Part shown: one piece after another, positions 8,618-35,088 of the stretch
Layout: the number at the start of each line of letters is the position of its first letter
Position numbering within the stretch: position 1 is the first letter of the stretch
NCBI GenBank assembly: GCA_002049455.2
Contig: KV918775.1
Location: 310,001 to 374,000 of the forward strand
Direction of reading: 5' to 3'
Source of the DNA: Porphyra umbilicalis
Taxonomy: Eukaryota; Rhodophyta; Bangiophyceae; Bangiales; Bangiaceae
DNA length: 64,000 nt
Program-made: the position numbers and the translations under genes
The notes under the pieces: generated by a model
Told to the model about the DNA's origin: nothing
The model's input: only the letters and a program-made list of their open reading frames with translations
The model's database searches: none

Positions 8618-11412
8618 ATGGAATCCCCACCCTCACCCCCTCCCCCACTTCCCCCACATCCACCACCTCCCCCGTCTCCTCCTCGAAGCATGGAGGGCAT
8701 TTTTTGCCACTTCAAGGCCAAGACGCTTGGCGGCCTGAAATGGCACCAAATGCGAAAGCACCAGACCATGCAGCGCGATGCCCAGAAGCAATTGGAGGCG
8801 GACAAGCGCTCGATCGCGCGGCTGCAGAGGACCAACGAGCTGCGCAAGCGGGCGCGCGCGCGAGACGACGAGTTGAGGAAGGGGGGTGGATCGTCAGGTG
8901 CGGATGCCGGTCGATCTGAGGGTGGACCAGACGGGCCCCATCGGCGGGAAGGTACCCAGCCTGCAGGGCGCGACGTGGCGGTGCGCCGGCGGTTGGCGGC
9001 TGGTGGGGCAGGCGGTGGGGGGCCGCACGCAGATGGGTCTTCCTCGACGGGGGGGGACGGACGCGCTACTCCCGTCGCCGACTACCACGAGCGGCTGGAG
9101 GCCGAGGTGGGGGCGCTTTTGGAGTACTCGCGGCTCTCGGTCAGCCACTCGCCCAAGCGTCCGCATGGCAATGGCGAGGCTCCCGTCAACGAAGACGGTG
9201 CGGAGAACGAGTACTCATTCTTCACGCTCAACACGGCCGTCCGGGCGCAGTACGAGCAGCTGCAGGACTTTCAGCGGTCCACCATGATGAAGAAGCCGGC
9301 AACGCGCAGGCACAAGCGTGGCATGAGGAAGAAGCACGGGAAGTTCAGCACGGCCCGCCTCCGCGTGCTCGCGAGCTACCTTCTGTCGGCCAACGGCCCG
9401 GGCATGTCCGACAAGGGCATTGACAACTTTTTCAAGTTCATGCAAGATTGGGAGAAGAAGCCTAAGAAGAGCAAGCGCCGCCGCAAGCGGCTGGCCGAGT
9501 ACTTCAAAAATACCAACGCACTCAAGACGGCCGTGCACGCCGACCTCGACGCGGCGATGGAGGACGCAGGGTGGATGCAGTGTGAGTTTGCTCAGGGTGG
9601 GGTCAACAACGAGGCTTACTTTTTGCCGGTGTTGGACGTCATGATGCAGATGATGGCGGGTGCCCAGGACGTCAAGTACTGGAGCGGCATCGACGGGCCG
9701 GGCGAACTGACCGAGAGGAGGGAGACGCCCATGGACGTTGACCGATTGTTTGAGAAGGACGTCTGCAGCAAGGGGGTGGACAACTTTGTTCTGGGCTTCC
9801 ATGTGTACAGCGACAGCCACTTGCTGTCCGGGTCGTGGGGTAAGTTTTGGTCGGCCCCAATGTTTTTTGAGAGGGAGTGCCGGCGACCACATCACTTGGC
9901 GGCGATCAGAGTGTCCTGGTGATACATGAAACTCACCGATTGCTTCTGTCTCGCTTGATTTCTTTTTTTGATTGTTATGGCTGGCACTCTAAAATTTCCC
10001 CATTTTCCCACAGCACAAAAACTCTATCCAGTCCGCATTTGGGTCATCAATCTTGTGACAGACGAGCCGCAGTGGGTTACCGTGGCCTATGTGCCCATCG
10101 TCAAGAAGCTCACCGAGTCGGCGGCAGACGAGCGCGCAAAGCTACGACGTAGCACGGTCCTGCAGCGGGTTTTGTACATGGCCTTTCGCTCCGTCATGAA
10201 CGCGAGCCACTCGGGGGTGACCCTGCACAACAAGGACGGGAAGCCACTGACCGCCTTCCCCCCGTTGCTCTTGTACATCGCCGACCAGCCCGAGGAGAGG
10301 GCGGTGCTGTGCCTGAAGCAGGGCATGTGCAGGCACCCCTGCTCGCATTGCACCGTCGAACTGGGCGAGTGCGGCACGGAACGGGCGCTCACCGCGGACG
10401 AGCGCGTCGTGCTGCGGACGCTGCGCAACCAGGCCGAGTTGTGAGGCCACCGAAGATACTCGCGACATGCCAAGCGTCGCCTCGAGCTCGAGGCGCCGCA
10501 CAGCATCACGGGCTTCTTGCCGGCAATATCGGGGATGGCGGGGCTCAGTACCTCGCCCAACCTGCTCTTCAGGACGATTGGCTTCGATATGTTGCACGTA
10601 CGTTAATGCTTTTGAGCTTCGCGATATCTCTCCTTTGTAGGGAGCCGTGTGTGTGGGCGACCAGCATCGTATGGCGGGACATTCCTCTGACGCTTCTATT
10701 GTTTGCTCTTCCGCGCAACATGCATGAGATTCCTGGTTGGTGTGTCACAGGTGCTCGAATTGGGGGTGACCAGGGCATTGGTGCACCGGCTGGTCCAGGT
10801 GTTTCCGCACGTTTGTGCGGATTGTACACCGCTGCTGCGCTCCCCGACGGCTGTATACCAAGTCGTCAACAAGCGCATCTGGGAACTGAACCGCAGCAGC
10901 AAAACGTCGAGGGCAGCTGCGGGGTACGTTTTCAGTTCTCTCTGCTGTTGGAACTCTCTGTCTTCCCACTAATTGTCCCCCTACATGTCCGCCCGGACTA
11001 TTTGATTTCGCTTACTCATGTGCACTAATATTCTCCATCTCGTGCATTCTTGTACTTGCTGCCATTTTTCTCATTTTCGCTGCTTTTTAAACAGATACAT
11101 TGTGGGGCCGAAAGAGAAGCAGGCTACCTTTACGGGGAAGGAGCAGCGTCGCGGCGTGCACATCATCCCGTTGGCGATTCCGGGCGTCTGTAAGCTTTTC
11201 TGGCAACCGCCGGCGCCCAACTCGACCTGCGATGGGGAGGGGAGCCCGTACGAGTCGCAGCCGGCGGCCGAGCAGGGCGCCGCGGAGGAGGCGCCAGCTG
11301 ATGCCGACGGATACGAGGCGGACGAGGATGAGGCAGCGGCCCACGTCAAAAGCAGCTTCCAGTTCGATTGGGCGGCCTATCACCGCGCGTTTGGAAACAA
11401 GCCATTCGACGA
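8618..11412 (+). pseudogene. Plavaka/CACTA-like transposase, 5' portion (four exons, in-frame TGA)
   Basis: The encoded protein starts with a Pro-rich leader and a zinc-finger-like segment (FKAKTLGGLKWHQ). It continues with a basic linker (RRHKRGMRKKHGK) and the conserved transposase core (YSDSHLLSGS, then YPVRIWVINL and GFDMLHVLELGVTRALV). These match the Plavaka lineage of CMC-type DDE transposases common in fungi. Three introns with GT/AG ends fit precisely: 9840-10013, 10598-10750 and 10924-11094. Phases are 1, 0 and 2, and joining keeps the frame. A TGA at 10442-10444 interrupts exon 2 in frame. It could have come from CGA and suggests decay. The gene stops making sense at 11412, where an inverted-repeat-bounded segment begins; its 3' part lies at 33837-35088. 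ATG 8618 is preferred over 8570 because it starts the Pro-rich leader found upstream of the finger. Confidence 0.85.
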
Positions 11413-11446
11413 CCCTACAGGAACAAACCCGCAATAAAATCGCGAT
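11413..11446 (+). repeat. Left terminal inverted repeat of the 22.4-kb element
   Basis: It starts CCCTACAGGAAC and contains CGCAATAAAATCGCGAT. A second, subterminal copy of the inner motif (CGCGATAAAACCGC) lies at about 11493-11506. It pairs with 33800-33833. Most of the seven mismatches are A/G or C/T transitions. Confidence 0.85.
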
Positions 11447-13198
11447 CCGTGATGCTCGCGCAGGGACCGTGGGCCGAGGTCCAAACCGCGATAAAACCGC
11501 AATCTGCCGGACTTTGATTGGCCCACAATCGCCCTCAGCTGGAGGTCTGTTGTCGACCATGCTTACAGCCCACAAGTGCGGACTCCTGTTCGTATCGCTG
11601 CCTATTTTTCTGTTCCTTCGTATTAATATTTTATTTTATTTCTGTTCTATTACTCTAGCTGGCGAAGACGATCAAGCTGCTGCTGCGCCAGCTCCTGCTC
11701 CCGCGTCGCCTGTGCCGGAGCGTCGCCGTTGCTGGCCGTCGACGAGGCAGCAGCGTCCGCGGGGAGGGCGGCGGCAGCGGGCGGACCCCGCCGATGTAAA
11801 CCCCCCCCCGCCCAGTGTGTCCAGACAACGGGAACGGGGGGGAAGGCGGGGAGGAAGGCGGGGGGGAAGGGGGGCAGCCGCCCGGAGCGTCGGCAAAGGA
11901 GGAGGCGGAGGGGGAGGGGGGGGGGGCGCCGACGCCGGTGCAGGAGACGCGATCACCGGTGGGGGGGGGGATAGGGGGGGCAGATACTGCCAGCTGTGCG
12001 ACTCAAAGCAGCGGCTACCTGAGAGGCAGCCAGCAGACCACCCACATCTGAGTACGGGACACGGGAAAAAGACGGATGCGACAACTACAACAAAGATGTC
12101 AGCAGCCACGAGCGATGTGAAAAAAGCCACAAAGCCCGCACGGCGACCAAGACCGAGCCGTACCCCCTCATCAAAAGCGCACGACAAGCATCCTCCGGTG
12201 TGCGTACCTGCCCGGCTCGTGAGCGGCCGTCTAAAGGCGCAGAGCGCAGGCGAGAGCTCCGACGTGGTGGCATGGCGGTCGGAATTGAAGGGGGAGGGTG
12301 CAGAGAACGCGGGAAAAGAACGCGTCCGCGTGGGGCAACTCGACGATGAAGGCAGTTGACGGGTGGTCGACGACGCTGGGGACAGCCAGGCGTCAAAGCC
12401 CACACAAAGGAACCCACCCGATCCTCCGACACGGCAGCGTCACCGGCTCTTACGTGCTCCATTGGCCGCCGTTCCAGGCCGTATGCGACTGTCGGCACCG
12501 CACGTCCCGTGCCGATCCCACCTTGCCTGGGCCCCGGCCAATCAGAGAGCGAGATTCCACAATTCCTGGCCACGCTGATGGGGCTTTCCGGGGGTAGGGG
12601 GCCTCTTTTTCCCCGTCCGCTATTACAAATATTTGGCCCCTGGTGGTGAAATTTTCGGGCTGCCAGAGCGCCCTCTGCTGCACACCGACGGAAGGGCACT
12701 TGACGCTGTCAGCGGCCGAACGATTGGATGAGATTGCGCAGTCAGCATATGCCGCACCAATGAGCATCGTTCATGAATTGTGACAGGCGACAGAATATCG
12801 GCCCGGCCCACACCTGCAAGGACCCGGCATCGGTCCACATGGCCCTCGGTTCGAGGGTGCCGGGTGTCAGCGAGCGCGCGCGCGCGCGCGCGGGCACCGC
12901 CTCCACTCCGACGTGACGCCTGCCCACGTCCGCCAGATCGCGGAGCGTCGTCCGCTTCGCCACGCCCGACCCCGACCGACTACCCCGGCGCCTACGCCGA
13001 CTGCCACCCCTACTCGGCATTGTTCAACAAGTACCACGCCCCACCCATGCATGTATTGAACTGTCACGCTTACCCCGCCGCACCATCCCCCCATGTTGTG
13101 CTACCTCTGACACCCCCCATCTCCACCCCCACGGTCTCCCCCACCCCCACCGTCTCTCCCTGCTCTTCTCGTCCGCGTGTGCCCCAACGGGGAACAAC
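11447..13198. other. Left non-coding part of the 22.4-kb element
   Basis: The stretch contains an AT-rich run near 11610-11660 that ends in a pyrimidine-rich TAG and looks like an intron end. It also holds a GC-rich low-complexity tract (11680-11990), the 103-bp inverted-repeat partner at 12400-12503, and a balanced-composition stretch before the ORF at 13199. No convincing gene was seen. A (GC)n run lies at about 12871-12891. Confidence 0.4.
12400..12503 (-). repeat. Dispersed repeat arm A (inverted copy of 23704-23806)
   Basis: This about 103-bp segment is the reverse complement of 23704-23806 with only a few substitutions. It includes the CTCCATTGG motif at one end of the palindromic unit described at 23738-23871. 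Confidence 0.93.
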
Positions 13199-16100
13199 AT
13201 GGAGCGGGACGCACACGGCCAACCGCTCCGGCGCCTCCTCATGTGTGACTTTCTTCAAAGCTTACCCGTCGTTGAGGACGACGCTGAGGACGCGTACCTC
13301 CCGCTAGGAGACTCGTCACACTCGCTGCTTGCCCAGGCGCGGAGCGCCTACACCGACTACGTTGCCAACCACGATGCGGGAGACGCCTCGGTTGGCGCAA
13401 CTCCCGGGGCCACGCACGACGACGGCTACGACGACGATGGCGGAGGGCCGCCTGCCAGTGCGCAAGACGCCAGCCACGCTGCACCGCGAAGTGCGGACGC
13501 CAACGGACCGGGAGCGGCACCGACGCCGGCTGCGCTCTCTAAAGCACAGCGAGCAAGCCGCCGTCGGGGGCTGAAGGCGGCGGCCTCGACTGCCGCTTCG
13601 AGCACCCGCACCAAGAAGCCCCGCCAGCCCACCAAGATGGAGCGGGCTTACTCCATGGAGCAGCTGGTCACGGTCTTCCTCTCGGAGCTCCGCGTGGCCG
13701 TAGGCCTCGTCGCGCGCATGGGCGGCGATGACGAGCTCGAGGGCGGGTGCGTCAACGACGCCAACGTCATTGGCTTTGTCGAGGCCTTCGACCCCATCTG
13801 CGTCTGGACGGCGCTGCTCAAAGGCAATGTCGCCGCCTTTTGCTCCTGCGGCGGCGACATGGGCAGCGGCTCGGCGGCCGCGGTGGACCACGCGCTTGAG
13901 CACGTCGAGATACAGTGGAAGCGCAAGAAGAGCTCCACTTGTCGCCACGCGGCGGCGCTTCTGGCGGCCTACCGCGTGATGTCGGCTGAGTTGGGCCTGC
14001 AAACGCCCGAGGCGCTGATACTCGCGATGCCGTCCTTGCGCGGCCCTGACCTGCCGGCCGACGGCAAGCCCGACGAGACGGTCGTCCACGACGTGGGCAA
14101 GGTCGGCAGGCGGATGAACATCCCGCTGTACGCCATCTGCTACGGCAGCATCTGGTCACCGGCCGTCGTCCGTCCGGGTGGCAACCGGTACAAGTTGGCC
14201 ACGTGGTGCCTCCTGTCCTGCCAAACCCAGCCTTGGGGGTGCCCGCATGCCAAGGCCGTCAACAAGTTCAACCGAGTCGAGGCGTCGGCGGCGTCGGAGG
14301 CGGCGGCGGCTGCTCAAGAGGCGTTGCGATTTGGACCCAGAGGTGTGCTGAACGAGATGGGCGACCCGCCCCCTGCCGAGCCCGCGGCAGCCGCCCCCGC
14401 TACTCCGCAAGTGCCGCCGCCACCTTCGCGCCCCCGTCGTGCACGCAATATGTTCCCGTGCACGAAGGAGGTGGCGTTGTGCGACGTGTACTGCAAGTTT
14501 GTGGACGCGGCGCGGGCGGCCAACAACCTGTACCGGTACGACTCGAGGCTTCATGTGGAGGAGAAGTGCATCGTGTGCCAAGAGCCGCGGGGCGACTCGC
14601 TGTCGTCCCAGAACGTTGCCCTTCTCTTCACCGTGAGGGGACGCATGCAGATCTTGGTCGGACAGTGGGCATGCGTCAATGGCCATGACGTCTTGTACGA
14701 CGGGGCGGGCGACGGCCTGTTTGCTGCAACCCAAGAGATTGTCTACGCGCGCATCTTCTTGGACCTGGTGCTGGAGCTGTGCGTTTTTGCGCGGTCGACT
14801 ATGGCGGCGGCATGCCAGTACCTGACGGGGCTTCTGAGGAACACGGCCGCCTATGGAGAGGGCGAGCCTGGCCAAGCCCGGCAGCTGCTGTCCGACGCGA
14901 CCGGAGAGTTCTCGGAAACGCTGGTTGTGCCGGCCGCGGCGTTCAAGTGCCACCACTGTGGCCGGGAGGAGTCGGCCGGCGGGCCGTTCAAGTGCATTGT
15001 GTGCGACGGTCAAATGCTGTCGGTGCTCCAAGCACACGTCAAGGAGATGGTTCGGCCGAGCGGCAGCGCGCCACGGGTCGACTTCTCCATACTTTTCGCG
15101 TGTGCGATCCGGACGTCATCGATGAGGGGGCTGGTGCGCCGCCGCGTCCGGGCCAAGCCGGAGGAGGGGGTTGACCTGACCATTGCCGAGTCCCGCGTGT
15201 GGCCCCAATTTGTGGCTGCCGCAGACGAGCCACCTCCCGCAGCCCCGCCACTACCCATGGCCGATGGGGTGATGCAGCGTGCGCCGATCGATGACGAGCG
15301 GGCGCTCAGGTGGTCTGCGGCCCAAGTCGTCGAACACTTTTTTGCGGTAGACGGGCGCGGCGATGCTGGAGCGCCAGCTGTGCAAGCAGCACCGGCCGCC
15401 GCGCTCGATCCCCCCCCGCATGCTGCCGCCAACGAGGACGATGCCGCTTCTGGGGACGATTACGATGACGAGGACCTGGTGAGCGGCCAATAGACCAGCG
15501 GCAGCGACGACGACGACAGCGGCACCAGCGACGACGAGATCTACCAAGCCGATGCGGACGCTGGCAGCGGGGATTCGGTCGGCAACGCCACCGACGACGG
15601 CGGCAGTGGGATGGAGCTCGAGGGCGGTGCGGTGCAAGTCGAGGATACCGGTGCGGCGGATATCAGCCCGAGTGTGGCGTTGTTGCCCTCCAACGGAGCC
15701 TCGGCGCTCGACGGCACCCAGCCACCTGCGCCGCGCTCCCTATCGTCGCCGACGTCTGCTGCAGGGTCGGGCTCTTCCTCGTACTCTTTATCACCGCCTC
15801 CAACGAGACGCCGTGGACGTCCGGCAGCTACCGCCCGCGCACGGCGCCCTACCCGAAGGTCAAGGCGTAGGTCAACCACCCGAGTTGGTAGCGAGGCGTG
15901 GCGGCTGGAGGAGGGAGAGATCGAGGAGGTGCCGGTTGGGGGAAACGCCAGCGAGGACTCAGTCGCCGTCGATCGGGCGAATCCGCTGTCCCCACTGACG
16001 TTGCGCGCCATCAAGGCGACTGCTGACGCCATTGTCGGGCCGTCCGATGGCGTCGCTACCGTGCTGGTCAAGATCGGTCCCATCCCGCTGCAGCTAGAGG

Positions 16101-16675
16101 ACTTCCTGCTCACGCTGCCGAACCAGTGGTTTAATGACGAGCTCGTCAACGCGTACGTCGAGTTGCTCCGCGTCCGCCAGATCAAGTTTGCGTCCTCCGT
16201 ACGTCGTAAGCCGCACTATATCTTTTTTAACTCGTTCTTCTTCGACAAGCTCACCGAGAAAGGCAGCTTCAACTACGACGCGGTGCGGCGCTGGACGAGA
16301 AAAGAGGTCGTGCTCAAGGCCCGCAAGATCTTCATCCCTATCAACGTCACAGATGCGCACTGGTTTTTGGCGGTGGTCGTCCCGGCGGCGGGGCGCGTCG
16401 AGCTCTACGACTCCATCGGCCGGGCGCAGGAGCACATGGGCAAGAACCTTGCGCGGTGGGCCAAGAAGGAGGCCTCCTCCCACGGCTTGCCCAAGAAAGA
16501 TTGGAGCGTCGTCACGATGCCTTGCCGCGTACAAGAAAACAATGACGATTGCGGCGTCTTCACATGCCGGCACATGGAGCTCATGTCCAAGGGCGAGGCG
16601 GTCGTCAGTTGGGGCGGGAGCTCGTCGTACCATCGCCGCCGGATAGCAGCCGAGTTGCTGTCCGGTTCCCTATAA
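13199..16675 (+). pseudogene. KDZ-transposon accessory protein: SWIM zinc finger, CxC cysteine clusters and C-terminal Ulp1 protease (one in-frame TAG)
   Basis: A single frame of 1159 codons is interrupted only by TAG at 15491-15493. Residues about 214-250 form a SWIM-type finger (CSCGG followed about 30 residues on by CRH). Further Cys pairs near residues 456-460 (CIVC) and 584-605 (CHHCG and CIVC) match the CxC clusters of proteins that accompany KDZ transposases. After an acidic Asp/Ser/Gly linker comes a Ulp1/SENP (peptidase C48) domain, residues about 970-1155. It has WFNDELVNAY, catalytic His in DAHWFLAVV, Asp in YDSIG, and the Gln plus Cys in VQENNDDCGVF. All catalytic residues are present. 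Ulp1 enzymes remove SUMO-like tags. The TAG lies in the acidic linker, so the two halves may have been one polyprotein or are now two genes. An internal ATG at 15611 could start the protease alone. Confidence 0.85.
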
Positions 16676-19058
16676 AGCTGTTGCATGTTTCCTCTCTTTG
16701 TCATTGTGCCGTTGTCTTATCGTAATGAACACGACTCCACACTCATTTTTTGTTTGTTTCCTACCGCAACGGCCGCCAGCCGGATGAGCGCCATCAAATG
16801 ACCTTCTCGACGGTGGCATCGATCAAGAAGTAGACGAGTGCAACAGTTGGGCACGCAGCAACGAGACAAAAGCAATCTTAGAAGCCTCTCGTCCCGCCAT
16901 CAGCTCGTCGACGTGGTCTCTATCAGCTCGTCGACGTCGTCGCCATCGGCCACCTCCCGTCCGCAGGCGGCAACCGCCCCGTTGGCGGCAATTGGCTTGG
17001 TACGAACAGCGGCGGTGGCGGGAGCCGCCTCTTCCGTCACCACCACCGCCGCCTCTTCCCCACCGCCTCCGCTGTGCCGGCCGACTGGACGCCGGCACGC
17101 GCGGCAGAAGAGACGAGCATGTTGTCGTTGGCCGCCTCCGTCTCTCGGTGGCCACCGTCACATTGGCGCCGGTTGGCTCCGCGCCGACGGCGGCTGTGGT
17201 GGGTGCCGCCTCGTCCGTCGCCACCACCGCCGCCGCGTCGCCACCGCCTCCGCCGCGTCGGAAGATTGCACTTGGGCGGACGCGGCAGAGGCGATCAGCT
17301 TGTTTCCGTCGGACGCCTCCGACGTGCTTGTGCCACCGCTCCATCAGCGTCGGTCGGCTCCGCGCGGACGGCGGCGGTGGCGGGTGCCGCCTGGTCCGTC
17401 GCCACGCTGACCGCTACATCCGCGGCCGTCCCTGCTGCCACGCCCGCCGGCTCCGCGTCGGTCCCTAAAGAAGACGAGACGGGCATGTAGCATCCCGCCC
17501 CGGCGTCCGACTCGACCACCACCGCCGTGGCGGCGCCGGTTGGTGGGACGGCGGTGGCGGCGGCGGCAGCCTCCGCCACGTCCGGCGTCCCTGCACCGCC
17601 ACTTCGGAGAATCGCGCGTCTGTGGTTGCCGCAGACACGAAAAGCCACTGGCCGTTAGTCGCCTAGGCCACCAGCGCGAAAACGGCGGCGAGCATGCCGC
17701 CAACGGCGGGGGCGGCAGGTCACGGCCAGGTCCGCCTCAGCTACGATCCCCGCGTCGGCCGGCGGCACGCCAGAGGTCGCGGCACACGACAGCGGCACGC
17801 TGTGGCCGGCCGCGTCCATCTTGTTGGTGGCCTCCTCCATGTCGACGGCAGTCGAATTGACGCCGATGGCGGCGGCGTTGGCAGCCGCCACATCCATAGC
17901 CGCCACCGCCGTCGCGTCGGCCGACCGCTCGTCGGCGCTCGCGGCAGTCGCGACCAGCATCTCGCTTTTCGCCATCTGCCCCGTGTTGGGCGCCACTCCC
18001 CCGTCGGCGACGGTTGGCCAGCCGCCACTTTTGTCGGTGTCTCCTGCCAGCTCTTTGAGCAGCACTTGCGCAGCCCCTTTCCGGGAGTCGACGTGTCACG
18101 GCATGGGAGCCCATGATCACTCGTCTCTCGCAATGCCCGCCATTTTGCAGAGAAATCGGCGAGTCTCGGTCAGATATGCAGAGTTAGTAGTTGATATTCT
18201 CTGCAGTATTATAAGTCGCTCGCAGACCACTCCAGTTCATCAGAACTCTCGTACTTCTCTGCGGCCACTGAGATCTCCAGGGGAGCTCACATGATTCGTG
18301 CTTTTCGCCGTCGCAACCGCCACCATATGCAAAGGACAGTCGACAGCAGCCATAGCGTGGGGTGGAGAGGACCCCGTTCACAGTCTTCAGACGGGTTGCC
18401 TGTGGACCCTGCTGCGAGGCCGTGTCCTTTGCAGCAACTGGGCTCGTGGTGTCCTTTCGCAACTGCACGCTGCCCAGTGCTTCCAGTGGTCCGATTTGGA
18501 GATCCGTGCCGTGCGACCCCGATCTCACACCAGTGTCGGACAACGGAGCGATCCTGGAGCGTGAAAAATCTTGGGTGGACGCAGCCTGTAAGCGACTGCA
18601 CTCCCATGATGCTTGGATCGTGCAGGCGTGGAGCCCCCGATCAGCCTGCAGACGGTGCGCAGACGCACCTGTCTCGGAGGCTTCTCCCGCGACCACTGCC
18701 ATCACGCTCCCGGCACCTGTCCTGGGCGCTTCACTCCATTCCCCCGCAAAGTCTGCCAAGCGGGGTCCCAGCGGACACCCATATGGGGGCATGGCAACGG
18801 CTCTCTCGCGGACCGGTTTCACTAGAGAGGTACCCTGCTGGTTACTGTGCACCAGTGGCGTGCTCTGGCGTCTCGCTCGTGCCTCTGCCCCCCCCCCCGC
18901 GGCCTCTGCCAGGAGGTCTGGCTGCCCACCCTCTCCGCATAGATGGTGGCGGCCACTGCCGCGACGATGGTCTGGCGTCCCCTGGACGGCCGGCTGCCGT
19001 AGCAGCGCCCTCACCCCTGCCCCCGTGAGCGCCGAGCCGACCTACCCCGACACGGACA
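16676..19058. other. Degenerate Ala/Thr/Pro-rich coding-like repeats, multiple frames
   Basis: The region is built of diverged repeat units rich in Ala, Thr and Ser on one strand or the other, for example around 16950-17480 and 17740-18060. Frames shift often and stops interrupt them. The units resemble the better-preserved 162-bp repeats at 19059-19740, which suggests a decayed long repeat protein. The stretch 18100-18300 is AT-richer without a gene. I see no functional ORF. Confidence 0.4.
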
Positions 19059-19740
19059 AGCAAGTCACCGTCGGGACGAGGGAGGCGGGTGACGGCAGCC
19101 TGCAGCTGGCTGACGCGTCGGCGGCGCTCAAGACGGCCGCAGCGGCGACCGCCAACACCGCCGTCGGCGCCACGTTGACCGACGCCGACGAGGTGGGCGC
19201 CAGAAAGACCGGGAAGGCGGGCGACGGCGGCCTGTCTGTCGCCTCTGCTGCGGTGGTTGACGCGCAGCTGGCCGTCGCGTCGGCGGGGTTAAGTACGGCC
19301 GCTGCGGCGACCTCCACGGCCGCCGTCGGCACCACGTCGACTGACGCCGACGGGGTGGACGCCGGAAAGACCGGGAAGGCGGGCGACGGCGGCCTGTCTG
19401 TCGCCTCTGCTGCGGTGGTTGACGCGCAGCTGGCCGTCGCGTCGGCGGGGTTGAGTACGGCCGCTGCGGCGACCTTCACGGCCGCCTTCGGCACCACGTC
19501 GACCGACGCCGACGAGGTGGACGCCGGAAAGACCGAGGAGGCGGGCCGCGGCAGCGTGTCGGTCTCCTCTGCAGCGGCGGTTGAGTCGCAGCTGGCCGAC
19601 GCGTCGGCGAGGTTGAGCAGGGCCGCTGTGGCGACCGCCACCGCCGCCATCGGCACCACGTCGACCGACGCCGACGAGGTGGACGCCGGCAAGACCTGAG
19701 AGGCGGGCCGCGGCAGCCTGCCGGTCGCCTCTGCCACACA
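19059..19740 (+). repeat. 162-bp (54-residue) tandem coding repeats
   Basis: Units beginning near 19221, 19383, 19545 and 19707 repeat every 162 bases, after a shorter first unit at about 19089. Each encodes a VASAAVVDAQLAVASAG-type segment followed by a TDADEVDAGKT segment. The frame is kept through the units until a TGA at 19697-19699. More diverged units follow to about 20400. The encoded Ala/Asp/Thr-rich repeats are probably extended or disordered. No function is recognised. Confidence 0.9.
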
Positions 19741-20418: not shown

Positions 20419-20528
20419 GGCACCCCCGGCAACGCGCAGCCGGTCAACGCGTTGCTGTGGGCGGGAAGTGACGACCCCCGCGTCACCTTTGGCCCCAAGC
20501 TGACCGTCACCGACGAGCCGCAGGGGTT

Positions 20529-25200: not shown

Positions 25201-26900
25201 TCGCAAGGCCCACTCGCGAGGCGCCGCGTCGTAGCCGCTGCAGGTGAGCGAGCGTACGTGGCGGCGGTCGAAGCGAACGCGACCGCCGCGGAGATCATGG
25301 GCGGCTACCTCGTCGCCGCAGACACGGCGATGGTCACCACCATCCGAGAAGCGGCCCACGGCAGCCTGCCCGTCCCGGGAACGGCCCCTGGTGACCTGCG
25401 GCCTGACACCTCGGCGGCGGTGGAGGAGATGGCCGTAGCCGCGCCTGCCGCCTCCCACTTTCTTGCCAAGCGGACCGCCGCCGAAGAGGCGGTGGCCACC
25501 ATCAAGGGAGAGGCGGCCGACGGTGATGAGCCTATCCCGCCGGCCGCGCCCGCCGACTTGTTGCGGGCTGACACGGCGGCAGTGGTGGGGACGAGCATGG
25601 CGCCGACCGACGCCCCCGCAGTCGGCGCCTATCCAACCGCCACCGAAGAGGTTGCGGCCTACAAGACGTTGGAGGTGGCCAACGGCAACCTGCCCGTGTG
25701 GTCGGCTACTCCCGTCTACGCGCAGCGTGCTGACGTCGTGGGTGCCCGTCTGGTCGGTCACGCCCGCCCTCCGACGTGTTACCAGCCGACGCGGCGGCAG
25801 CGGTGAGGACGGACGTGGCCGCGACCGCCGCCGCCCCAGACGTTGCCAAGCCGACCGGCGCCGACGAGGCGGTGGCCACCAAAAAGTGGGACGCTGCCGA
25901 CGACAACCAGGTCATCCCGCCGCCGCCACCGTCGGCCCCTGACCGGCCGCCCCCGGCGAGGCTGTCGCCATCAAGACGGTGAACGCGGCCGACAGAAACC
26001 GGCCCGTCCCGTCCACCTTTAATACCAACATGCTGGCCGCCGACGCGGCGGTGGCGGCTGGCACGAAGGTTGCAACGACCGTCGCAGCCGTCGCTGGCGC
26101 TACGGAAGCCGCCGTCGACTGGTTGGAGGTCTTTGAGCACAGGGACGCGGCCGCAGGCTACCTCCCAGTCACGTCTGCCGTGCACGAAGACTAACTACCC
26201 GCGGACGCAGTGGTGGGGTGGGGGAGGGCGTGGCGGCGCCAGCTGCCGCCGCCGTCGGCGCCGACCCGCCGGCCGAAGACAAGCTGCCGGCCGCGTCAGC
26301 TGCTCCTGTGCACACGCTGCCAGCCGATGCGTCGGTGTGGGTGGGAACGGGCGTGGCCGGGACCGCCGCCGATCCGGTTGTCACACAGCCGACCGATGAC
26401 AACCAGGTGTTGGCCATCACCACGGGGGAGGCGGCCAACGGAAACCAGTCGTCGCTTCCACAACGCCCGCCGACGTGTCGCCGGCTCACACTCCAGTGGT
26501 GGTGGAGTAGGCTGATGCGCTCACCGCCGCCGCCGTCATCGGCGGGAAGGCAGTCGGTGACGACAAGGTGGTGGCCTGCAACATGGGCGAAGTGGCTGAT
26601 GGCGCGCTGATGTTGGTGTCTGCGGTGCCTGCCAACGCGCCGGCGCGCCGGCCGGCGCGCACCCTGCTGAGGTGTCGCCGTTGGCCGACAGACGAGTCAC
26701 GCTGCTGCAGCCGTCGTCGGGGCCAATGACGCGCCAAGCCGACGGCATCCGACAAGGCGGTGGCCGTCTAGACGGAGGACGCGGCCGGCGGCAGTGTGCC
26801 GGTTGCGACTGCCGCGCACCCTGTCGTGCAGCGGGCGCACGTGCGCCGACTGGCGGCTGTGGTGGGGGCGGATGTCGTTGTGACCGTCGATATTGTCCGC
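25201..26900 (+). pseudogene. Second block of degenerate Ala/Asp/Thr-rich repeat coding sequence
   Basis: Units encode patterns such as KGEAADGDEPIPPAAPADLL followed by a TAADEAVA-type segment, clearly related to the repeats at 19059-20418. The frame is best preserved from about 25240 to 25800 and from 25776 to 26190 in different frames, then breaks repeatedly. Unit length is roughly 150-160 bases. This suggests that a long repeat-protein gene was duplicated or split within the element. No function is recognised. Confidence 0.5.
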
Positions 26901-27145
26901 CATAGCCGTCAGCGTGGCGGTGTTGGATGGCGAGCGGCTGCAGCTGTGCTACGCGAGTGGGATGCCGGACATAAAGTTGCTTCTCGTCGTCGCGAGCATG
27001 CGCTGCCGGTTGGGGGAGGACGGTGGGGAGTGGTAACGAGCGCCCGACTCATGATATAGCATGTATCCCCTGGGGCTCTCGAATGCAGCCAACATTAATG
27101 AGGTAGTGGACAAAGAAAATATGGACATATGTAACCAGACTCGTG

Positions 27146-27601
27146 CTACTCAAAGCAGGCGTGTGACTGCGGACGCACGTCGTCGTCCGCCCCCGCCGCA
27201 CCTCCATGCTCCTTGCACGCACTGTCAGCGCGGTACATCAAGTCCCAGACACTACCCGCAAACTCAGCGACAACCCCGCGGAGGAGCCTACGATACTCGG
27301 TGTCTGATTCGCCCACCGGTACAAAATGCAGTTCACAGATCGTAATACAAAACACAGGACGCGAAAAGCACCCCTCCCGCACGGTCCGCAACAAACGCTG
27401 CGCCTTGAACATGTTCGCTTGGTTGGGTGGCGGCACCAGCTTGACGACGTGTGTTGCCACCATGCGCAAAACTTCGTGAGCGATGAAGGCGGTGACGGCT
27501 GGGTGCGCCTCCCCGCGCTTGACCGCCGCCAGGTACATCGGGTACTTCAAGGGCGCGGTGCGGTCAGTGTGGAGGCAGACCGGAATGTGGGAGGCGTCCA
27601 T
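27146..27601 (-). CDS. Unknown 151-residue protein of the 22.4-kb element
   Basis: The ATG at 27601 follows a pyrimidine-rich leader and opens a compact, non-repetitive frame starting MDASHIPVCLHTD. Mixed hydrophobic and charged residues with balanced helices (for example AVTAFIAHEVLRMVATHVVKL and ITICELHFVPVGE) suggest a folded domain. A C-terminal acidic/Cys tail follows. Unlike its surroundings the frame carries no stop. It reads toward the element's left end, opposite to the KDZ genes. The family is not recognised. It may be an accessory transposon protein. Confidence 0.55.
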   Translation of the reverse strand: MDASHIPVCLHTDRTAPLKYPMYLAAVKRGEAHPAVTAFIAHEVLRMVATHVVKLVPPPNQANMFKAQRLLRTVREGCFSRPVFCITICELHFVPVGESDTEYRRLLRGVVAEFAGSVWDLMYRADSACKEHGGAAGADDDVRPQSHACFE

Positions 27602-28344
27602 GGTCAGGGAGAGTGAAGTAAGAGGGAGGATGGGAAAGGCGGGGAATGAGGAAGCGAAGTGAAGTGCAGGAAACGGGGATGAGGGAGGGGGGGCCGAAAG
27701 AGAAGCGCACACATGAGCGGGGCAGATGGCGAGGGGCAAGGTGAGGATGCTGGGGACGAGCGAGGCCAGCCGGTGGCATGATATACTGCCCGATGGAGGC
27801 GGGTGCCTGCGACTACCGCGAGCGCCTCGAGGAACACCCGAGCAGCCCCCGCACCCGCCCCCTGGAACTCATGCTCTGGGGCAGCTCCCAAAAAGGCGGT
27901 AAACCGCTTCTTGCGTCCACCGCACTTTGGGGTCAGGCCTGCTTGATCATGTGAAGTGCTTGCCTGTGTATTTATATGCGACTGCTGCACTTCGACGAGT
28001 ACGGAAACTAACTCCAGGAGAAAATACAAACCGCATCATCGTTGAACTCGTCTTCTTCCTGGAGCTGACTTGCGTTGTGTGTGAGTCCCACCTAGGAACC
28101 GTACGTTTGGCAGCCGAGCGCGGCGAGGCATGTTTTTCTGTCATTGAGCTGTCCATTGCTTGATTAAGAGCCTTCCATTGCCTACACACTCAATGCACAA
28201 AGCAGTCCAAAAGGTCAAGCGGAGAGGAACATGATGAACGCCAACAAAAACACAGCATGAACACGCCAGTCCGCATTTTCAACGCCCTTGACCTCCGCGC
28301 CCCGTCTTGCGGGGCGACCGTCGCAACGGCTTGGTCGCTGGCTC
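27602..28344. other. Intergenic stretch between two minus-strand ORFs
   Basis: Moderate GC, pyrimidine-rich on the minus strand just upstream of the ATG at 27601. No frame with motif or codon bias and no obvious repeat. The last part (about 28160-28260) is AT-rich and may be the 3' untranslated region of the gene ending at 28345. Confidence 0.35.
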
Positions 28345-31300
28345 TTATGGCGCGGACTTGGCGGCCGACGCTCTGCGCAAAGACTTGGGGGCCGGTTCTT
28401 CCGCGTTGGCCACAGTGTCGCCAGGGCTGGCTCGTGGTCGCTTGGAAGCGCGACGACGGGCCGGCTGGTCCCCACCCCGTCCTGCTTTCGGGCTTGCGGA
28501 AGCCTCGCCGTCCTCCCCCGCCGACGTACCGCCGGTCGCTAGCCGTGGCGACGGGGTCATCGCCGTATTCATGGCAGCCGCTGCCGCCGCAATGCCGGAG
28601 AGTGAGGGACTTGGGGGGGACGCCGACGTGGCATTCGGCGCGCGGCTTCCACGCGCAACGGACGTCGGTGTAGTCGCGGTGTTTCGCTCTTGGGGCGCCG
28701 CCGCCGACGCTTTTGTGGTCCTTCGCGTCGCCATTGCGGGCGTCCCTTTTCGCAGGGTTGCCTTCATTGCGGCACGGGTTGTCCGCACGGCCGCTGCCGT
28801 TGCCCGCCTTGACTCCGTCGCCGTCGATGACCCGGCGGCCACCCGCATCGCCTTGGCGTGCGCACCCCTTGTTGATGGCGCGGCATTTGCCTTGCGCGGC
28901 AACGGCGCCTTGGTCGGCAGCGGCGGCTTCGATGCCACTCGCACCTTGCGCGCCACTGGCGGCTCGTCCGACGGCGGCTTGGGAACCGATGACAGCTTGG
29001 CCGGCGGCGGCGGCTTGGCCGCTGGCGGCGGCTGGATCGCCTGTGTGTGGGCCAAGGGCGGCTTGGGGACCGCTGGCGGCTTGGCCGGCAGCGGCGGCTT
29101 GGCCGCTGGCGGCCGTCTGAGGGCTGGCTGCGGTTTGGGTTCGCCAGCCGCAGCGGCTGCTGCCAGCTGCCTCGCTGCCATCGACCTGACGTAAGGGGCG
29201 GCAATTCTCGCCGACGTCCTTTCTGTCGCCCTTAGCCGCCGTGGTGTAGCTGTGGGCCGCTTTGGTGGCGGGGCAGGTGCACCCGCCAGATGTGCCGCGC
29301 CGCCCCTCTTGGCGGCCTCAGGCGGCTGCTCTTCGAGACGCTGCTCGTTGGGCGGCAGCTCGTCGTGCGGCAGCTCTTCGTGTGCTGGTAAATCGGCGAG
29401 AGGACTGCCGGGCTCCGGTGAGTTGGGCGTCGGGGAGACGGTAGACAGGGTGTCGGGGGGCGGCGCTTGGGGCTGTAGTTGCAGGGGAGCACCAAAAGCG
29501 CGCTCGGCAGCAGAGGCGGGAGCGCCTGCGTCTTTCGAGGTCGGCGACAGAGATGCGGAGGGCGGCCGCGCATGGACGCCAATGACGGCGGGCACCACCG
29601 GCAACACCGACAACGCCGTAGACGCAATCGGGGGTGGCTGGTGAGACGACGTTGCCGTCGTTGCCGACGGCGCCGCAGTTGACACGCTTGACTGCCCGTT
29701 CCTGCTCTCAGTTGAAGTAAAGGATGGCATCGCCCTCGCAGCGGCCGCCGATCCGACGGCACAAGAAGATCTTGGCAGCAGCGCGCGCGCCCACGGCAAA
29801 TTTGCTGCCTGGATCTCTTGCGCCGTAGGGGGCAACCGTGCCCACGTGGAGTTTGGCACATTCGGCGTCGGCAGCGGAGGTGGCTGAGGAAGCTTTGTCG
29901 ACGCCGGTGGTGCCGCCGTCGGAGGCCGCTGAGTACGCGACTGCGCAGCAGGCGACGGTTTCGTCGGCACCACCCCAGCCGCAGCGGCAACCGCAATGGT
30001 CGACGCCGGAGCCCCACGCACCCTTGGCGACCCCATCATGTGCGTCCCTGCCGCCCCCGCCCCTGCTACAGCTGCCCCTTCCACCGCAGAGCTTTCCGCC
30101 GACGACCTTGCCGCCGACAGCGTTGCCCCCGCCGTCCGCTCCGCCGTCGCCCTTGCCGCCGCCGTCGGTGCCACCGCCTCCCCTGGAGCCGCCGTCGATG
30201 CCGGTGCCGACGCACAGGTGCCACCACCGTCGGTTCCGCCGCCATCGGTGCCGCCACCGTGCCTGAGAACGCCGTACTAGCAGGAGGCGGCCTTGCCGCC
30301 GCCGTTGGTGCCGCCGCCGTCCGTAACCCGGCCGTGCTTGCAGACGCTTTCTTTGCCGCTAATGGCCGTGCCGCTGCCATGGGTGATGCCGCCGTTGGCG
30401 GCGCCGCCGTGCTTTTGAACGACGACCCTGCAGCAGGCGGTATTGCCGCCACAGCTGGTAGCGCCGTCGGCGTTGCTGCCGCCGTAATTTTCAACGCCGT
30501 CGTTGCCGCCGGCGGCCTTGCCGCCGCCGTTGGTGCCGCCGGCGTCCTTGCCGCAGGTGGCTTTGCCGCCGTCGCTAATTCCGTCGCCGTCCTTACCACA
30601 GGCGGTCTTTCCGCCACCGTTGGTGCCGCCGCAGTCCTTGCGGCAGGCGGCCTTGCCGTCGCCGTTGGTGCCGCCGCCGTCTTTGCCGCAGGCGGTCCTG
30701 CCGCCGTCGGTGGTGCTGCCGCCGTCTTTGCCACAGGCGGCCTTGCCGCCGCCGTTGGTGCCGCTGCTGTCCTAGCCGCAGGCGGCCTTGCCGCCGCCGT
30801 TGGTGCCGCCGCCGTTGGTGCCATCGCCGTCTTTGCCTCAGGCGTCCTTGCCGCCGTCACTGGTGCCGCCGCCGTCCTTGCCACAGGCAGCCTTGCCGCC
30901 ACCGTTGGTGCCGCCGACGTCCTTGCCGCAGGCGGCCTTGCCGCCGTCGCTGGTTCCGCCGCCGTCCTTGCCACAGGCGGCCGTGCCGCCACCGTTGGCG
31001 GCGCAGCTGCCCTAGCCGCAGGTGGCCTTGTCGCCGCCGTTGGTGCCACCGCCGTCCTTGCCGCGGGCGGCCTCGTCGCCGCCGTTGGTGCCGCCGCCGT
31101 CGATGCCCAAGACGTCCTTGCCGCCGCCGTTGGTGCCGCCGCCGGCCGTGCCGCCGCCGTGCTGCTGAAAGCGGTTCTCAGCGCAGACTGCCTTGCCACT
31201 GCAGTCCCTGTCGCCGCCGTCCCGGCCGCGGCGCCTTCTTCAATCGCGGCCTTGGCGGCCGCAAGCGCCTCGCGCACACGCGTCTGGTCGAACGCTGGTG

Positions 31301-32660
31301 CCACAGCACGTGGTACTTGCGGCAGCCCAGAATCATGGGGCTCATATCTGGAGCCAGGTGCACTTCCTTGTGCTCTCTCGCTCGCCGCTGCAGCCGCGGC
31401 AAGCGATAGGCGGGCGCCCTTGGGACGCGAGACGGCAGCAAGTCCGGGTGCCGTGGGATGACCTTGTCCAGTGGGCGCTGAGGGCTGGCTGTGGCCGGCT
31501 GGCGCAGCGGGCTGGCCTTGGCCGGCAGGTTCTTCAGACGCAATGGCGATGCCTGTCATCGGCGCGATAGTCACTGTGCGTCGTAGCTGCGTGCGCTTCA
31601 GCCGGAGGTTGAACTTGATGAGCGTCGCCTTGGCATTGGGCTCCCTCTCGACCATCAGCAGCATGTCGGCCACCCTCTCGGTGGCGGGCGCCGAGCGCGT
31701 GGCCAGCATTCTCCTCAGGTGCACCAGCGTCTCTCCGTCGGTCGGGCCTTTGGTCTTGTCCGCCGCGCGCAGCATCTTGTTGTCCACCTCAACAGTTTGC
31801 TCCCACAACTCGCCCTTGTCCGTCCTAGGCCACCAGCGGCGGCTGACCCGTATCTTTGCGACGGAGGCCCCGCTGCACACACTCTTGACCATTGCAGGCA
31901 CCAGGGTCCTCATCAGCGTCAGCGGCTTGCTTGACCCCCTCAGAAACTCCATCACCACGTTCTTGGTGGACTGACTCGGGATCACCAGCAGCGGCGCGGT
32001 GGCGGTCTCGGGGCAGGTCTTCGCCGACGGCCGGTTGCGGCCGCCCGTCGGAGCCGCCCTCGAATGGATTTCATCATCCATGTCGGTGGCCGAGTTGTCG
32101 CTGCCCGCATCATCGTCGGTTGCTGCGTCGTCGCTGCCCGTACGGTTGCCGACCGCGCCGTCTGGGTCGTCCGACAAAGTAGATGCGGGGGGTGCGTCGG
32201 GAGGTGCTCCTCCAGTCGAGGGAGCCCCCGTAGCTGGCGGTGTGCTGACAGCGGTGAGGTTGGATGCCGAAGGCGGAAGCCCACGCGGGCGCGACTTCTT
32301 GAAAGACCGGTTCTTGACCCGTGCAAGCCAGGGTTTTGCCTCCAGCAACGTTGTGGAGCCGGCAAGCATGCTGTCCGCGCTCTCGATGTAGCGGTAGACC
32401 ATGTTGAGCACGCGCTTGGCAGGGCTGTCAAGGACGACCTGATCCTCGAAGATGGGCACCCAAAACACCTTGCCGTCGAGGTCGTAGCCAGACATGTGCA
32501 AGTGGAAGTTGATCGTCGGGTTGTCAATGGCAAAATGCTCCACCACGTCGAGCAAGACCTCGATCTTTGCCACGGACGCCGGCGTCATACGGCTTCCGAC
32601 CAAACGGTTGATATTCTTTTCCAGCTTGGCGTGCGTCTCACGCACCGCCTTGGAGACCAT
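28345..32660 (-). CDS. Large low-complexity protein with unique N-terminal domain and H1-like basic tail (one frameshift)
   Basis: From ATG 32660 (MVSKAVRETHAKLEKNINRL) the first about 150 residues are non-repetitive. A disordered Ser/Asp/Pro linker and a second ordered block follow (about 31540-31980). Next comes a long tandem array of AAAPTAAARPPAART units, then Pro/Gln-rich and KPPxxAKPP-type stretches. It ends in a Lys/Arg/Ala/Pro-rich tail resembling linker-histone C-termini. The frame changes once near 30170-30230; composition and style are continuous across it. A longer start at 33110 is possible but less likely because the added residues are Pro-rich and frame-neutral. The family is not recognised. 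Basic Ala/Pro-rich tails commonly bind DNA, so a DNA-compacting or targeting role is only a guess. Confidence 0.6.
30430..31160 (-). repeat. Tandem 45-bp coding repeats (AAAPTAAARPPAART type)
   Basis: Roughly fifteen copies of a 45-base unit read on the minus strand as 15-residue Ala/Pro/Arg/Thr repeats. Occasional units are shortened by one third, for example near 30770-30820. On the plus strand the unit opens GCCGCAGGCGGCCTTGCC. Variation between units is mostly substitutions, and the frame is kept throughout. Confidence 0.9.
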
Positions 32661-33799
32661 GTCGACCACCAGAGCGGGCACCAGCACCAACGGTGGTGTG
32701 GTGCCACCCAGCCGCCGCTGGCTGGGCGGTGACAGGCGAACAGGAGGCCGTGTGGGGGCCGGTCGAGAGCAGGTAGAGGAGTGTGGCGGAAGGAGATGGG
32801 GGAGTGCCTGGGGGTGGTGGATTGAAAGCGTGGGGGAAGAGTAGGCAGGCCAATGGCGCAAGGGGAGGGGTACAGCCGAAGAGAGCGTCGTCGGGGGGAG
32901 CCGGGTGCGGAGAGGCCAGGTGGATGCAACGGTGTAGGCGGAGATTGTGTTCTCACCCCCCGACGTCCGGGGGTGATGGGGCAAGGGTGCGGCGTGCGAC
33001 CATGTGGCAGCGTGCCGCCGGGGCGAGGCGGGAAGAGGACGGTCGGCGAGCTGGCCGGGCCCCAGGAAGTGGGAGCACAACCAACGTTGTAGGGCGGGCA
33101 CCCAGACCACCGCGCGCGCGCAGTCGGAGAGCGAGCCCGCGCGGCCGCCCGAGGGGGACCCAACTGAAGGGGCGCTGGGCAGGTGGTCGGTGGTCCGCGG
33201 TCCACCTGATTTATGTAAGGAGGAAGGGTCTCAATAGATCGCATAATGTGATGCTGAGATTTGTGGGGAGCAGGAAATTGTGGAGAGCCCGGACAATTTT
33301 CGAGGCTGTGGAGGGCGTCCCCAAGGGGCCTGGAACGGGGGTCATGCAGGCACATGATTGGCCGTGGCAGTGGCACGGGCGTCAATCGGCAATGGACGCG
33401 GCGTGCCGGCAGGCCCTCAGGGCGCGGAGAGGCAGCCAATGGAGCCCGTATACCCAGATGACGGCGCCGTGCCGGCGGATCGTAGGTATTCCTACGCCAA
33501 GCCCAAGGCTTGTCGCTGCGCTGCAATGAGGTCTTGGTAATGGAGCCACACGGCCGAACGCTCATCATGAAAGGGTGCATGACTCCTTATTGGATGGCAC
33601 TAGATGTTTAAGGAGGCTTCCGGAACATGATTGGATGCTTCAAGTCGCTTCGAGAAGCCATCAGAACAGGAGCTGCGAACTTTGTGGAAAGCCAATCAGA
33701 ACTCATGAAGGCATCCGAGAAGCCATCTTGCACTGTCAGGACCCAGCGATCCGACCAAGACTCGTCCAGACCCCTGTTGGCCCGTGGGAAAACCGCGAT
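32661..33799. other. Right non-coding part of the 22.4-kb element
   Basis: Contains the presumed promoter of the minus-strand gene starting at 32660, repeat arm B (33433-33498) and, next to the right end, a perfect 22-bp palindrome AAAACCGCGATATCGCGGTT plus TT at 33789-33810. AT-rich sequence at about 33540-33740 holds no frame of note. Confidence 0.45.
33433..33498 (+). repeat. Dispersed repeat arm B
   Basis: The 66-bp segment from CAGCCAATGGAGCCCGTA to TTCCTACGCC is an inverted, essentially identical copy of 23805-23870. Confidence 0.94.
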
Positions 33800-33833
33800 A
33801 TCGCGGTTTTATCGCGCATCCGTTCCCGTAGGG
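33800..33833 (-). repeat. Right terminal inverted repeat of the 22.4-kb element
   Basis: Read on the minus strand it starts CCCTACGGGAAC and contains CGCGATAAAACCGCGAT. It pairs with 11413-11446. The next three bases (CGA) duplicate 11410-11412. Confidence 0.85.
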
Positions 33834-33836
33834 CGA

Positions 33837-35088
33837 GGCCGTGACAGCAATGTTTGTTGAGTATGCGGCTCTCTACCAGCGCATGGCGGGGTATGCCGGC
33901 GCGTCGTTCCCTCAGCCGATGACGCTCAGAGAGGCACACGCCATCCAGAAGCAGGCCACCGCCTTCATCAACTCCTTTGTCACCCCCCTGCTCGGCCCCA
34001 TCAACAGCACCAAGGTTCATCGTCTCCTCTGCCACGTGTTTGAGGCCATCCGCGACCACGGCAGCCTCCTCAACATGAACACTGCGGTCAACGAGTGCCA
34101 TCACAAGGAGGACAAGGCCCATTACGTTCACACCAACCGGGACCCCAAGGGGTACACGCGGCAGCTCGTTCGCCATGCTCAGGGCACGCGCCTGGTCAAA
34201 GCCCGACTCGACCGGGATGCGGTGGCAGCTCGGGTCGCCCGTAAAGCAGCGCGTGCCACCGCTGCTCTCGGTGAAGACGACCGCACAAGCACCCCCTCCG
34301 ATGATGATGCGGCCGACACAACTACGCCAAGTGACGGCAGCGGCTCCCGGAACAGCAGCGCGGACCGCAGCAGCGACGAGAGTGGATACTACAGCTCCTC
34401 GACGGCCTCGTCGACTGACAGCGACGATTGCTCCACCGACCCGGACGCCGAGTGCTCGGGGGACGTGGGCGCCGTCGCGGAGGGGGGGCAGCTGGTAGAG
34501 ACTAAGCGGGCCTACCATCTCAATGAGACGACGGTGGGGTTACTTGCGGAGCGGCCGGGCTTGGGGCGTGCCGCGCGGTTGCTCAATCTGCCCTCCAACC
34601 ACGTCGTGTGGGTGAGAATGTCGAAGAACATCGAGGCCCGGTTTGACTGCGGCACCACCCGAAAGCATACTGTGCGGGGTACGTCCGACTACCGCGGATC
34701 CGAGTGGTACGATGCTGTCTTGTTCCATGCCAGCAACAAGGCCAAACGAGTGCGAGTAGGGAAGGTGGGTGCGCTGGTGCGCAAGCCCGAGGGGGACGTC
34801 GCGCTTGTCCTCGAGATGGTGCCGGTGGACGCCGTGCCTCACTGCCCGCTCTCCTTGCATGGGTGCTTGCGGTTGCGATGGCACTTTCGGGACGGGGACA
34901 CGGAATGTGTCGCAAGGCAGGTGCCAGTCGACCGCATCCGTCGACTGATCCACGTCGTGCCAGACTTTGCCGACCTAGCCGAGCGCCGTGGCTATGAGGC
35001 GCCGCCCGCCTCGCCGTACGGGTCGCTGCAGGACCGGAGGGACATGCGGTACTACTTGAATGCACTTTATCCGTGGGATGCATCATGA
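33837..35088 (+). pseudogene. Plavaka/CACTA-like transposase, 3' portion
   Basis: The frame opens directly after the CGA duplication and runs to the TGA at 35086-35088. Early residues (FVEYAALYQRM, then KVHRLLCHVFEAIRDHGSLL, NTAVNECHHKEDKAHY) match the C-terminal region of Plavaka-type transposases, where a helix with KxHRLxxH precedes an N.xEx.HK motif. An acidic Ser/Asp linker and a C-terminal globular region (about 34500-35080) follow. There is no start codon of its own at the breakpoint. The first two bases of its first codon come from 11411-11412 if the intervening element is removed. It has host-like GC3 and no internal stop. Confidence 0.85.

Follow-up and report, generated by a model that had tools for sequence, protein, structure and literature searches.

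To our knowledge, the pair of outer ends is regarded as all that a DNA transposon requires at its borders or within. The described systems closest to the locus treated here are the Kyakuja-Dileera-Zisupton (KDZ) transposons and, in layout, the DIRS retrotransposons. In the accessible parts of the sources, Kyakuja elements have 7-bp target duplications and CA..TG termini without inverted ends, and Plavaka elements are not counted within KDZ (PMC12730594), while the Cryptococcus elements KDZ1 to KDZ3 are approximately 9 to 11 kb long, with inverted ends of 139 to 241 bp and duplications of 8 or 4 to 8 bp (PMC12810828). For DIRS, the accessible portion of a further source describes internal complementary regions that match both termini and through which a circular intermediate is proposed to arise (PMC3266345); a curation guide applies the term "internal complementary region" to DIRS (PMC8969392). 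Here, we analyzed a 64,000-bp stretch of the Porphyra umbilicalis genome (contig KV918775.1, positions 310,001 to 374,000; hereafter, the window; 66% G+C), in which a Plavaka-like transposase gene is split by a 22.4-kb insert, and searched the contigs of the 83.8-Mb genome for relatives of its features. The insert is a nest, the largest member of which is a 21-kb KDZ-related element that carries, near its middle, an inverted and gapless joint of its own two termini. C-numbers (C49, C230, C18, etc.) denote contigs of the same genome, and W denotes the window copy.

An earlier note had read the insert as one 22.4-kb KDZ transposon with CCCTAC ends, in favor of which speak its outer inverted ends and the CGA duplication. 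Both were seen: the outer ends, CCCTACAGGAAC... and CCCTACGGGAAC..., are inverted with 27 of 34 positions matching, and CGA stands on either side (11410-11412 and 33834-33836). The note had also held a chance match to be very unlikely, and the counts agree, since exact 3-bp duplications flank 8 of 13 CCCTAC copies (the window's included) versus 1.16 on re-pairing, with 0 of 100,000 shuffles as good. Other genomic copies do share these ends; however, they are short, measuring 1,329 to 1,344 bp in the 12 other copies with both ends within the fetched locus. The terminal 990 and 335 bases of the insert make up this element of approximately 1.33 kb, which is found elsewhere without the inner DNA. 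The left 400 bases of the insert gave at least 45 best-scored genome matches and the right 400 bases at least 42, 13 of which correspond to the right end of the inner element, lying inside the query. In the window, homology to the CCCTAC element ends at 12402 and restarts at 33499 with a 7-bp overlap, AAGCCCA (12396-12402 and 33499-33505), dividing this nonautonomous element into a left piece (11413..12402, + strand) and a right piece (33499..33833, + strand). The empty site, CAAAGCCCAAGG, is uninterrupted in 10 of the 11 CCCTAC copies read, and the eleventh has a short deletion and no insert. The CCCTAC ends and the 3-bp duplications belong to a short nonautonomous family, and the DNA from 12403 to 33498 is a separate insertion with its own ends, duplication, and empty site. 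The single 22.4-kb element is therefore refuted and retains practically no probability; the KDZ label fits the inner 21-kb element and not the CCCTAC-ended one.

The inner element (12403..33498, + strand; 21,096 bp) sits in the CCCTAC element between the two AAGCCCA, its 7-bp duplication, and its ends, CACAAAGG... and ...TACGCC, are distinct from CCCTAC. Such 7-bp duplications were exact in four of the six copies with both ends read, and agreed at 6 of 7 bases in the other two. The window copy was compared for collinearity with eight others, a comparison outside which C19, C13, and C252 lay. Four are collinear with it (C49, 20,768 bp; C335, 19,408 bp; C33, 20,115 bp; and C18, 18,819 bp), three are partial copies that reach contig ends (C363, C422, and C457), and C275 (8,472 bp) is a deletion derivative. 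The layout is L - A (11.2 kb) - L' R' - B (9.6 kb) - R, where L is the left end (CACAAAGGAACCC...; 12403..12512, + strand), repeated at the center over about 100 to 110 bp, R is the right end (...GGTATTCCTACGCC; 33433..33498, + strand), and L' and R' are the copies at the center. Since a single 7-bp duplication surrounds the whole 21 kb, the element inserts as one unit. It has itself received a 798-bp insertion (21333..22130) flanked by a 9-bp duplication, GAGGATGAC (21324-21332 and 22131-22139), which is missing from all eight other copies compared and, by eye, has no obvious inverted repeats at its ends; 9-bp duplications are typical of Mutator-like elements. Overall, the anatomy is almost certainly a nest in which the Plavaka-like gene received the CCCTAC element of approximately 1.33 kb, this element the 21-kb KDZ-related element, and the latter the 798-bp element.

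At the center of the inner element, an inverted copy of L (23695..23804, - strand; 95% over 110 bp) abuts an inverted copy of R (23805..23870, - strand; 66 of 66 bases identical) with 0 bp between them. The stretch from 23695 to 23870 is, in reverse orientation, the sequence expected from joining the element's two termini. We read this joint at 11 places (the window, C49, C335, C363, C457, C422, C33, C18, C19, C13, and C252). A 26-base pattern across it was found at 10 of these with at most one mismatch and 0 times with the reversed control, and the eleventh, in C33, has a 1-nucleotide deletion. Two of the places, C457:32015 and C33:406036, share 60 of 60 flanking bases and, judging from these flanks, are probably one insertion whose locus was assembled twice, so the joint is represented by at most 10 independent insertions. 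Over a 1-kb segment comprising the joint and its surroundings, identity is 99 to 100% within the group of C363, C422, C457, and C33, and 55 to 90% between lineages. Unrelated G+C-rich DNA aligns at roughly 55 to 60% identity; therefore, lineages at that level are very far apart. In 20-base blocks counted from the terminus, the identity between end and center declines inside 100 to 120 bp in six copies of L and inside 60 to 80 bp in five copies of R. Owing to the similarity of L and R, a long hairpin (z = -6.4) is predicted for the joint in single-stranded form.

The distribution of the ends was assessed with a 16-base pattern for L (at most one mismatch) and a 22-base pattern for R (at most three mismatches), limits that more diverged ends of either type would escape. 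Of the 25 L-type ends returned, joints account for 11 and outer left ends for another 11. The remaining 3, a number that the reversed control also gave, include one in C2 that resembles L at 72% over 113 bp. R-type ends also numbered 25, comprising 11 in joints, 7 outer right ends, and 7 without a joint. Within these mismatch limits, neither a lone L-A-L' nor a lone R'-B-R was present among the 25 L-type and 25 R-type ends, and none of the seven jointless R-type ends had a partner R end at a spacing similar to the length of B. These seven (C90, C236, C247, C47, C189, C252:81558, and C412) may be truncated copies, or else relatives whose left ends differ.

Next, the ends were compared with their own central copies. 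For L, five representative copies were used (C363, C422, and C457, which are nearly the same as C33, were dropped); in the 100 bp next to the terminus, end and own center were on average 97.2% identical, and no other of the 120 possible pairings was as good. Changes common to an L end and its own center numbered 22, versus 14 unshared, although 13 of the 22 came from C18 alone. The noncoding spacers diverge by 21 to 27%, far above the divergence between end and center. In L, W and C18 show the concerted change clearly; in R, it is weak. Because the joint persists amid almost unalignable surroundings and changes in its L half are common to an end and its own center, it is probably maintained actively rather than decaying.

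The inner element also carries the two halves of what appears to be one KDZ-type transposase, in separate conserved frames 3.9 kb apart. Gene 1 (12917..16675, + strand) contains an N-terminal half of KDZ type, in which CDGQ includes the presumed first catalytic Asp, followed by a C-terminal Ulp1/C48 protease (E = 4.3e-23), and gene 2 (20547..22796, + strand) contains a KDZ-type second half (FDTACQ ... GAERQH). Both are broken in the window copy, gene 1 by a stop at 15491-15493 and gene 2 by stops at 20949-20951 and 21042-21044 and by the 798-bp insertion. When aligned by hhalign with L003, a 731-residue single-frame KDZ-type protein, gene 1 covers residues 1 to 218 and gene 2 residues 276 to 684 (99.5 and 99.9%, respectively). 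The loci of L003 and of two other single-frame proteins of the same genome (L005 and L007), which hhalign links to the families of genes 1 and 2, are Pfam KDZ matches above cutoff, and a genome search with gene 2 reached Pfam KDZ loci in C342, C24, and C172 at 32 to 35% identity (C342:66187, 6.4e-27). Among 20 aligned gene 1 family members (19 of the 33 homologues found, plus C49), Ulp1 was detected in 17 and the KDZ-associated CxC4 domain (PF18717, E 0.01) in 5; CxC4 was not matched in the window or C49 copy of gene 1. All 27 aligned gene 1 homologues have the presumed first Asp (DGQ), and conservation of the second Asp (D330) and the Glu (E388) reaches at least 90% across 32 aligned homologues of gene 2; we take the catalytic identity of the three residues from the KDZ pattern. 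Third-position bias is strong in two parts of gene 1 (p = 1.7e-80 and 2.8e-26) and in gene 2 (p = 6.9e-31 and 2.8e-69), and lacks significance in the three spacers examined (p = 0.13 to 0.81) and immediately 5' of the ATG of gene 2 (p = 0.08). A gene 2 homologue, P0073, is present in Pyropia yezoensis (62% over 69% of the query). Relatives of gene 2 with less than 50% identity often lie in frames of more than 1,000 amino acids (aa), and those with 60% or more mostly in frames of 260 to 860 aa; therefore, the split looks derived. Altogether, comparison with these homologues makes it very likely that a KDZ transposase is divided here, with the presumed first Asp and Ulp1 in gene 1 and the second Asp and the Glu in gene 2.

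The explanation we favor combines the nest, the maintained joint, the split KDZ transposase, and a role for the joint, and we regard it as moderately probable as a whole. Two gene products, or alternatively spliced products, would assemble a KDZ transposase that recognizes four end copies. The abutted inner ends would be bound, and sometimes cut, as an end pair, and this inner pair would help the far-apart outer ends to meet. Repair of breaks at the joint from the terminal copies would then keep the short repeats in step. That the joint is a working inner end pair for the transposase, aiding synapsis of the outer ends, is a suggestion we make tentatively; the anatomy is independent of which mechanism at the joint holds.

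Several observations count against this explanation. In R, shared changes numbered 10 versus 15 unshared across six copies, with 6 of 720 pairings equally good. The own center was the closest to L, over 110 bp, in only three of eight copies (W, C49, and C18), being tied in two and beaten in three, and it was the closest to R, over 66 bp, in two of six (W and C19). Shared changes would also arise in an idle repeat under gene conversion. Gene 2 is present in C275, C67 (two copies), and C412, where the pattern search detected no joint within three mismatches. C275 is deleted through the joint and yet has its own near-exact 7-bp duplication; it may have transposed in a jointless state, or its joint may have disappeared afterwards. 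No comparable joint was seen in the 1.8 kb beyond gene 2 in C140, a relative at approximately 71% whose ends were not identified. As for the transposase, PF18758, the Pfam KDZ model, misses gene 2, both in the window pieces (E 5) and in 20 homologues (E 0.5); the KDZ link of gene 2 runs via its relatives. Genes 1 and 2 could be spliced together, and the structure model of gene 2 was too poor for use (predicted local distance difference test score, 44).

The main rival, which we consider rather unlikely, is that the joint is the fossil of a dimer: the R|L joint of tandem elements, inverted, kept similar by gene conversion from the ends, and functionless. It would account for the related 162-bp units shared by A and B (19.1-20.4 kb and 25.3-26.8 kb) and for C275, which lacks the joint and nevertheless has a 7-bp near-duplication. 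The Cryptococcus KDZ elements, at approximately 9 to 11 kb, are also half the length of the inner element, according to the accessible part of their description (PMC12810828). A functionless joint does not sit well with a sequence that keeps to at most one mismatch in 26 at 10 of 11 places, the remaining one, in C33, having its 1-nucleotide deletion, although the surrounding 1 kb falls to 55 to 65% identity. Moreover, repeats of 66 to 100 bp some 10 kb apart are poor substrates for gene conversion. That A and B are independent elements lying side by side by chance would agree with A being bounded by L and L' and B by R and R'. However, the identical gapless join at 11 places, the failure to find either half alone within the mismatch limits, and the one 7-bp duplication around both refute this for the present-day unit, and we give it very little probability; as a remote origin it is conceivable.

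A different function for the joint is conceivable, namely, that of a DIRS-like splint: in a single-stranded form, the 5' end would pair with L' and the 3' end with R', and the gapless termini would be ligated to a circle. The geometry equals that of the DIRS internal complementary regions, as far as the accessible part of PMC3266345 describes them. The joint has zero gap, and its changes preserve the complementarity between left end and center. Against a splint stand the 7-bp target duplications and the DDE-type transposase, and domain scans of the element's frames, outside which lay 33 of 63 additional frames of at least 130 aa, gave neither a reverse transcriptase nor a tyrosine recombinase. 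In addition, we know of no single-stranded stage in KDZ elements, and we judge this mechanism unlikely. An artifact of assembly has a negligible probability: the contigs of C363, C422, and C457 do end at the same element position, indicating that the repeat troubled the assembly, but the joint is internal to contigs, in lineages whose surrounding DNA diverges by as much as 45%. A bolder formulation, which we consider doubtful, would cover either function, that is, a DDE transposon with an independently evolved, DIRS- or herpes-like joined copy of its ends that is required for movement, as a splint or an internal synapsis site, and with an RNase H core that two gene products build together, a SUMO-type protease being tethered to one of the two.

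The host of the nest is the Plavaka-like gene, whose first four exons lie at 8618..11412 (8618-9839, 10014-10597, 10751-10923, and 11095-11412; + strand) and whose last exon lies at 33837..35088 (+ strand). As the earlier note had proposed, the introns are bordered by GT/AG, and the five exon pieces total exactly 3,549 bases. The Plavaka assignment is likewise upheld, the exon 2 frame matching Pfam Plavaka (PF18759) at 4.1e-12 and 46.4 bits (cutoff, 26.3); the domain was absent from the four other host frames scanned. Homology across the junction is uninterrupted: a paralogue in C230 aligns continuously over it (75% in 298 bp), and weaker matches in C163 and C64 also cross it. Given these alignments across the join, the host gene once existed without the insert. 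An in-frame TGA at 10442-10444 interrupts the joined reading frame; therefore, the "frame-restoring" excision footprint described in the note holds for the frame and not for an open gene, and no excised allele of the host gene was seen. Approximately 600 bp upstream of the gene, a second CCCTAC...GTAGGG element of 1,197 bp occupies window positions 6804-8000 with a CGG duplication.

Other features were recorded within the inner element and its relatives. Gene 3 (30066..33230, - strand), to which no function is assigned, has a third-position bias (p = 5.4e-18), codon-type conservation at approximately 31300 to 32800, and at least two homologues among the matches listed; the scans gave it no Pfam family. 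The stretch from 27100 to 28600 has an intermediate third-position bias (p = 6.6e-05), and within it positions 27103-27702 are 92 to 97% identical in the three close copies C49, C335, and C33, with a weak codon signal. Repeat arrays comprise 162-bp tandem units (19069..20401, + strand), with related units at 25303-26800 and thus in both halves, and 15-bp units in the right half (30036-31193). A GNAT-like match at 19585-20061 was rejected, being under its own cutoff and in a stretch without codon signal. In the related family of C140, a 50-bp inverted repeat with a 62-bp loop lies beyond gene 2 (positions 1435-1596 of L073, C140:19700-21500) and is perhaps a small separate element.

A transposon family with a second, joined, and inverted pair of ends inside it, and with changes common to end and center, provides a naturally occurring system for asking how the distant ends of a giant transposon meet. 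If its catalytic domain is indeed distributed over two genes, the transposase would be a natural split enzyme of a rare kind. Finally, the nest illustrates that long inverted ends can make three insertions read as one.

Compared with known systems, the host gene shares through exon 2 the Pfam match of Plavaka, of the CMCT/CACTA clade. For Plavaka elements the criterion is a target duplication of 2 to 3 bp with CATCA or TGT ends; the outer element has 3-bp duplications (exact in 8 of 13) and CCCTAC ends, and no autonomous partner for it turned up. In layout, the inner element resembles herpes simplex-type genomes, which have two unique segments, each between inverted repeats, and an inverted joint of the ends inside. 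Those genomes have large repeats and isomerize freely, whereas A of the inner element is in the same orientation in the eight copies compared, as is B in those parts that reach it, and free flip-flop isomers were rejected for this reason. A viral origin was rejected as well, since no gene 1 relative was confirmed in viral contigs (a set that may omit this genome) and the frames scanned held no virus gene. DIRS1-like retrotransposons likewise carry, side by side in their interior, complements of the beginning of the left end and of the last part of the right end, and the inner element offers a DDE counterpart to this region. However, they encode a reverse transcriptase and a tyrosine recombinase, make no target duplications, and have the region near the 3' end with a 3-bp overlap at the circular junction, while the inner element has a DDE-type transposase, 7-bp duplications, no overlap, and its joint near the middle. 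With KDZ, the inner element shares the transposase core, the CxC4 cysteine cluster in some homologues, a multi-kilobase length with 7-bp duplications, and inverted ends of roughly the same order as those of KDZ1 to KDZ3. It differs in that the transposase is apparently split over two genes, with Ulp1 on the first, the copies are 19 to 21 kb rather than 9 to 11 kb, the ends are approximately 71% alike and not CA..TG, and an inverted joint of the ends lies inside. The accessible portions of the literature searched yielded no report of an internal joined-end layout in a DNA transposon, and our search found none linking KDZ, transposase, and Ulp1. Neither for the joint nor for the split transposase or the Ulp1 fusion, in all of which the element departs from KDZ, did these searches show a precedent among DNA transposons; by its transposase and the length of its duplications, the inner element is KDZ-like.

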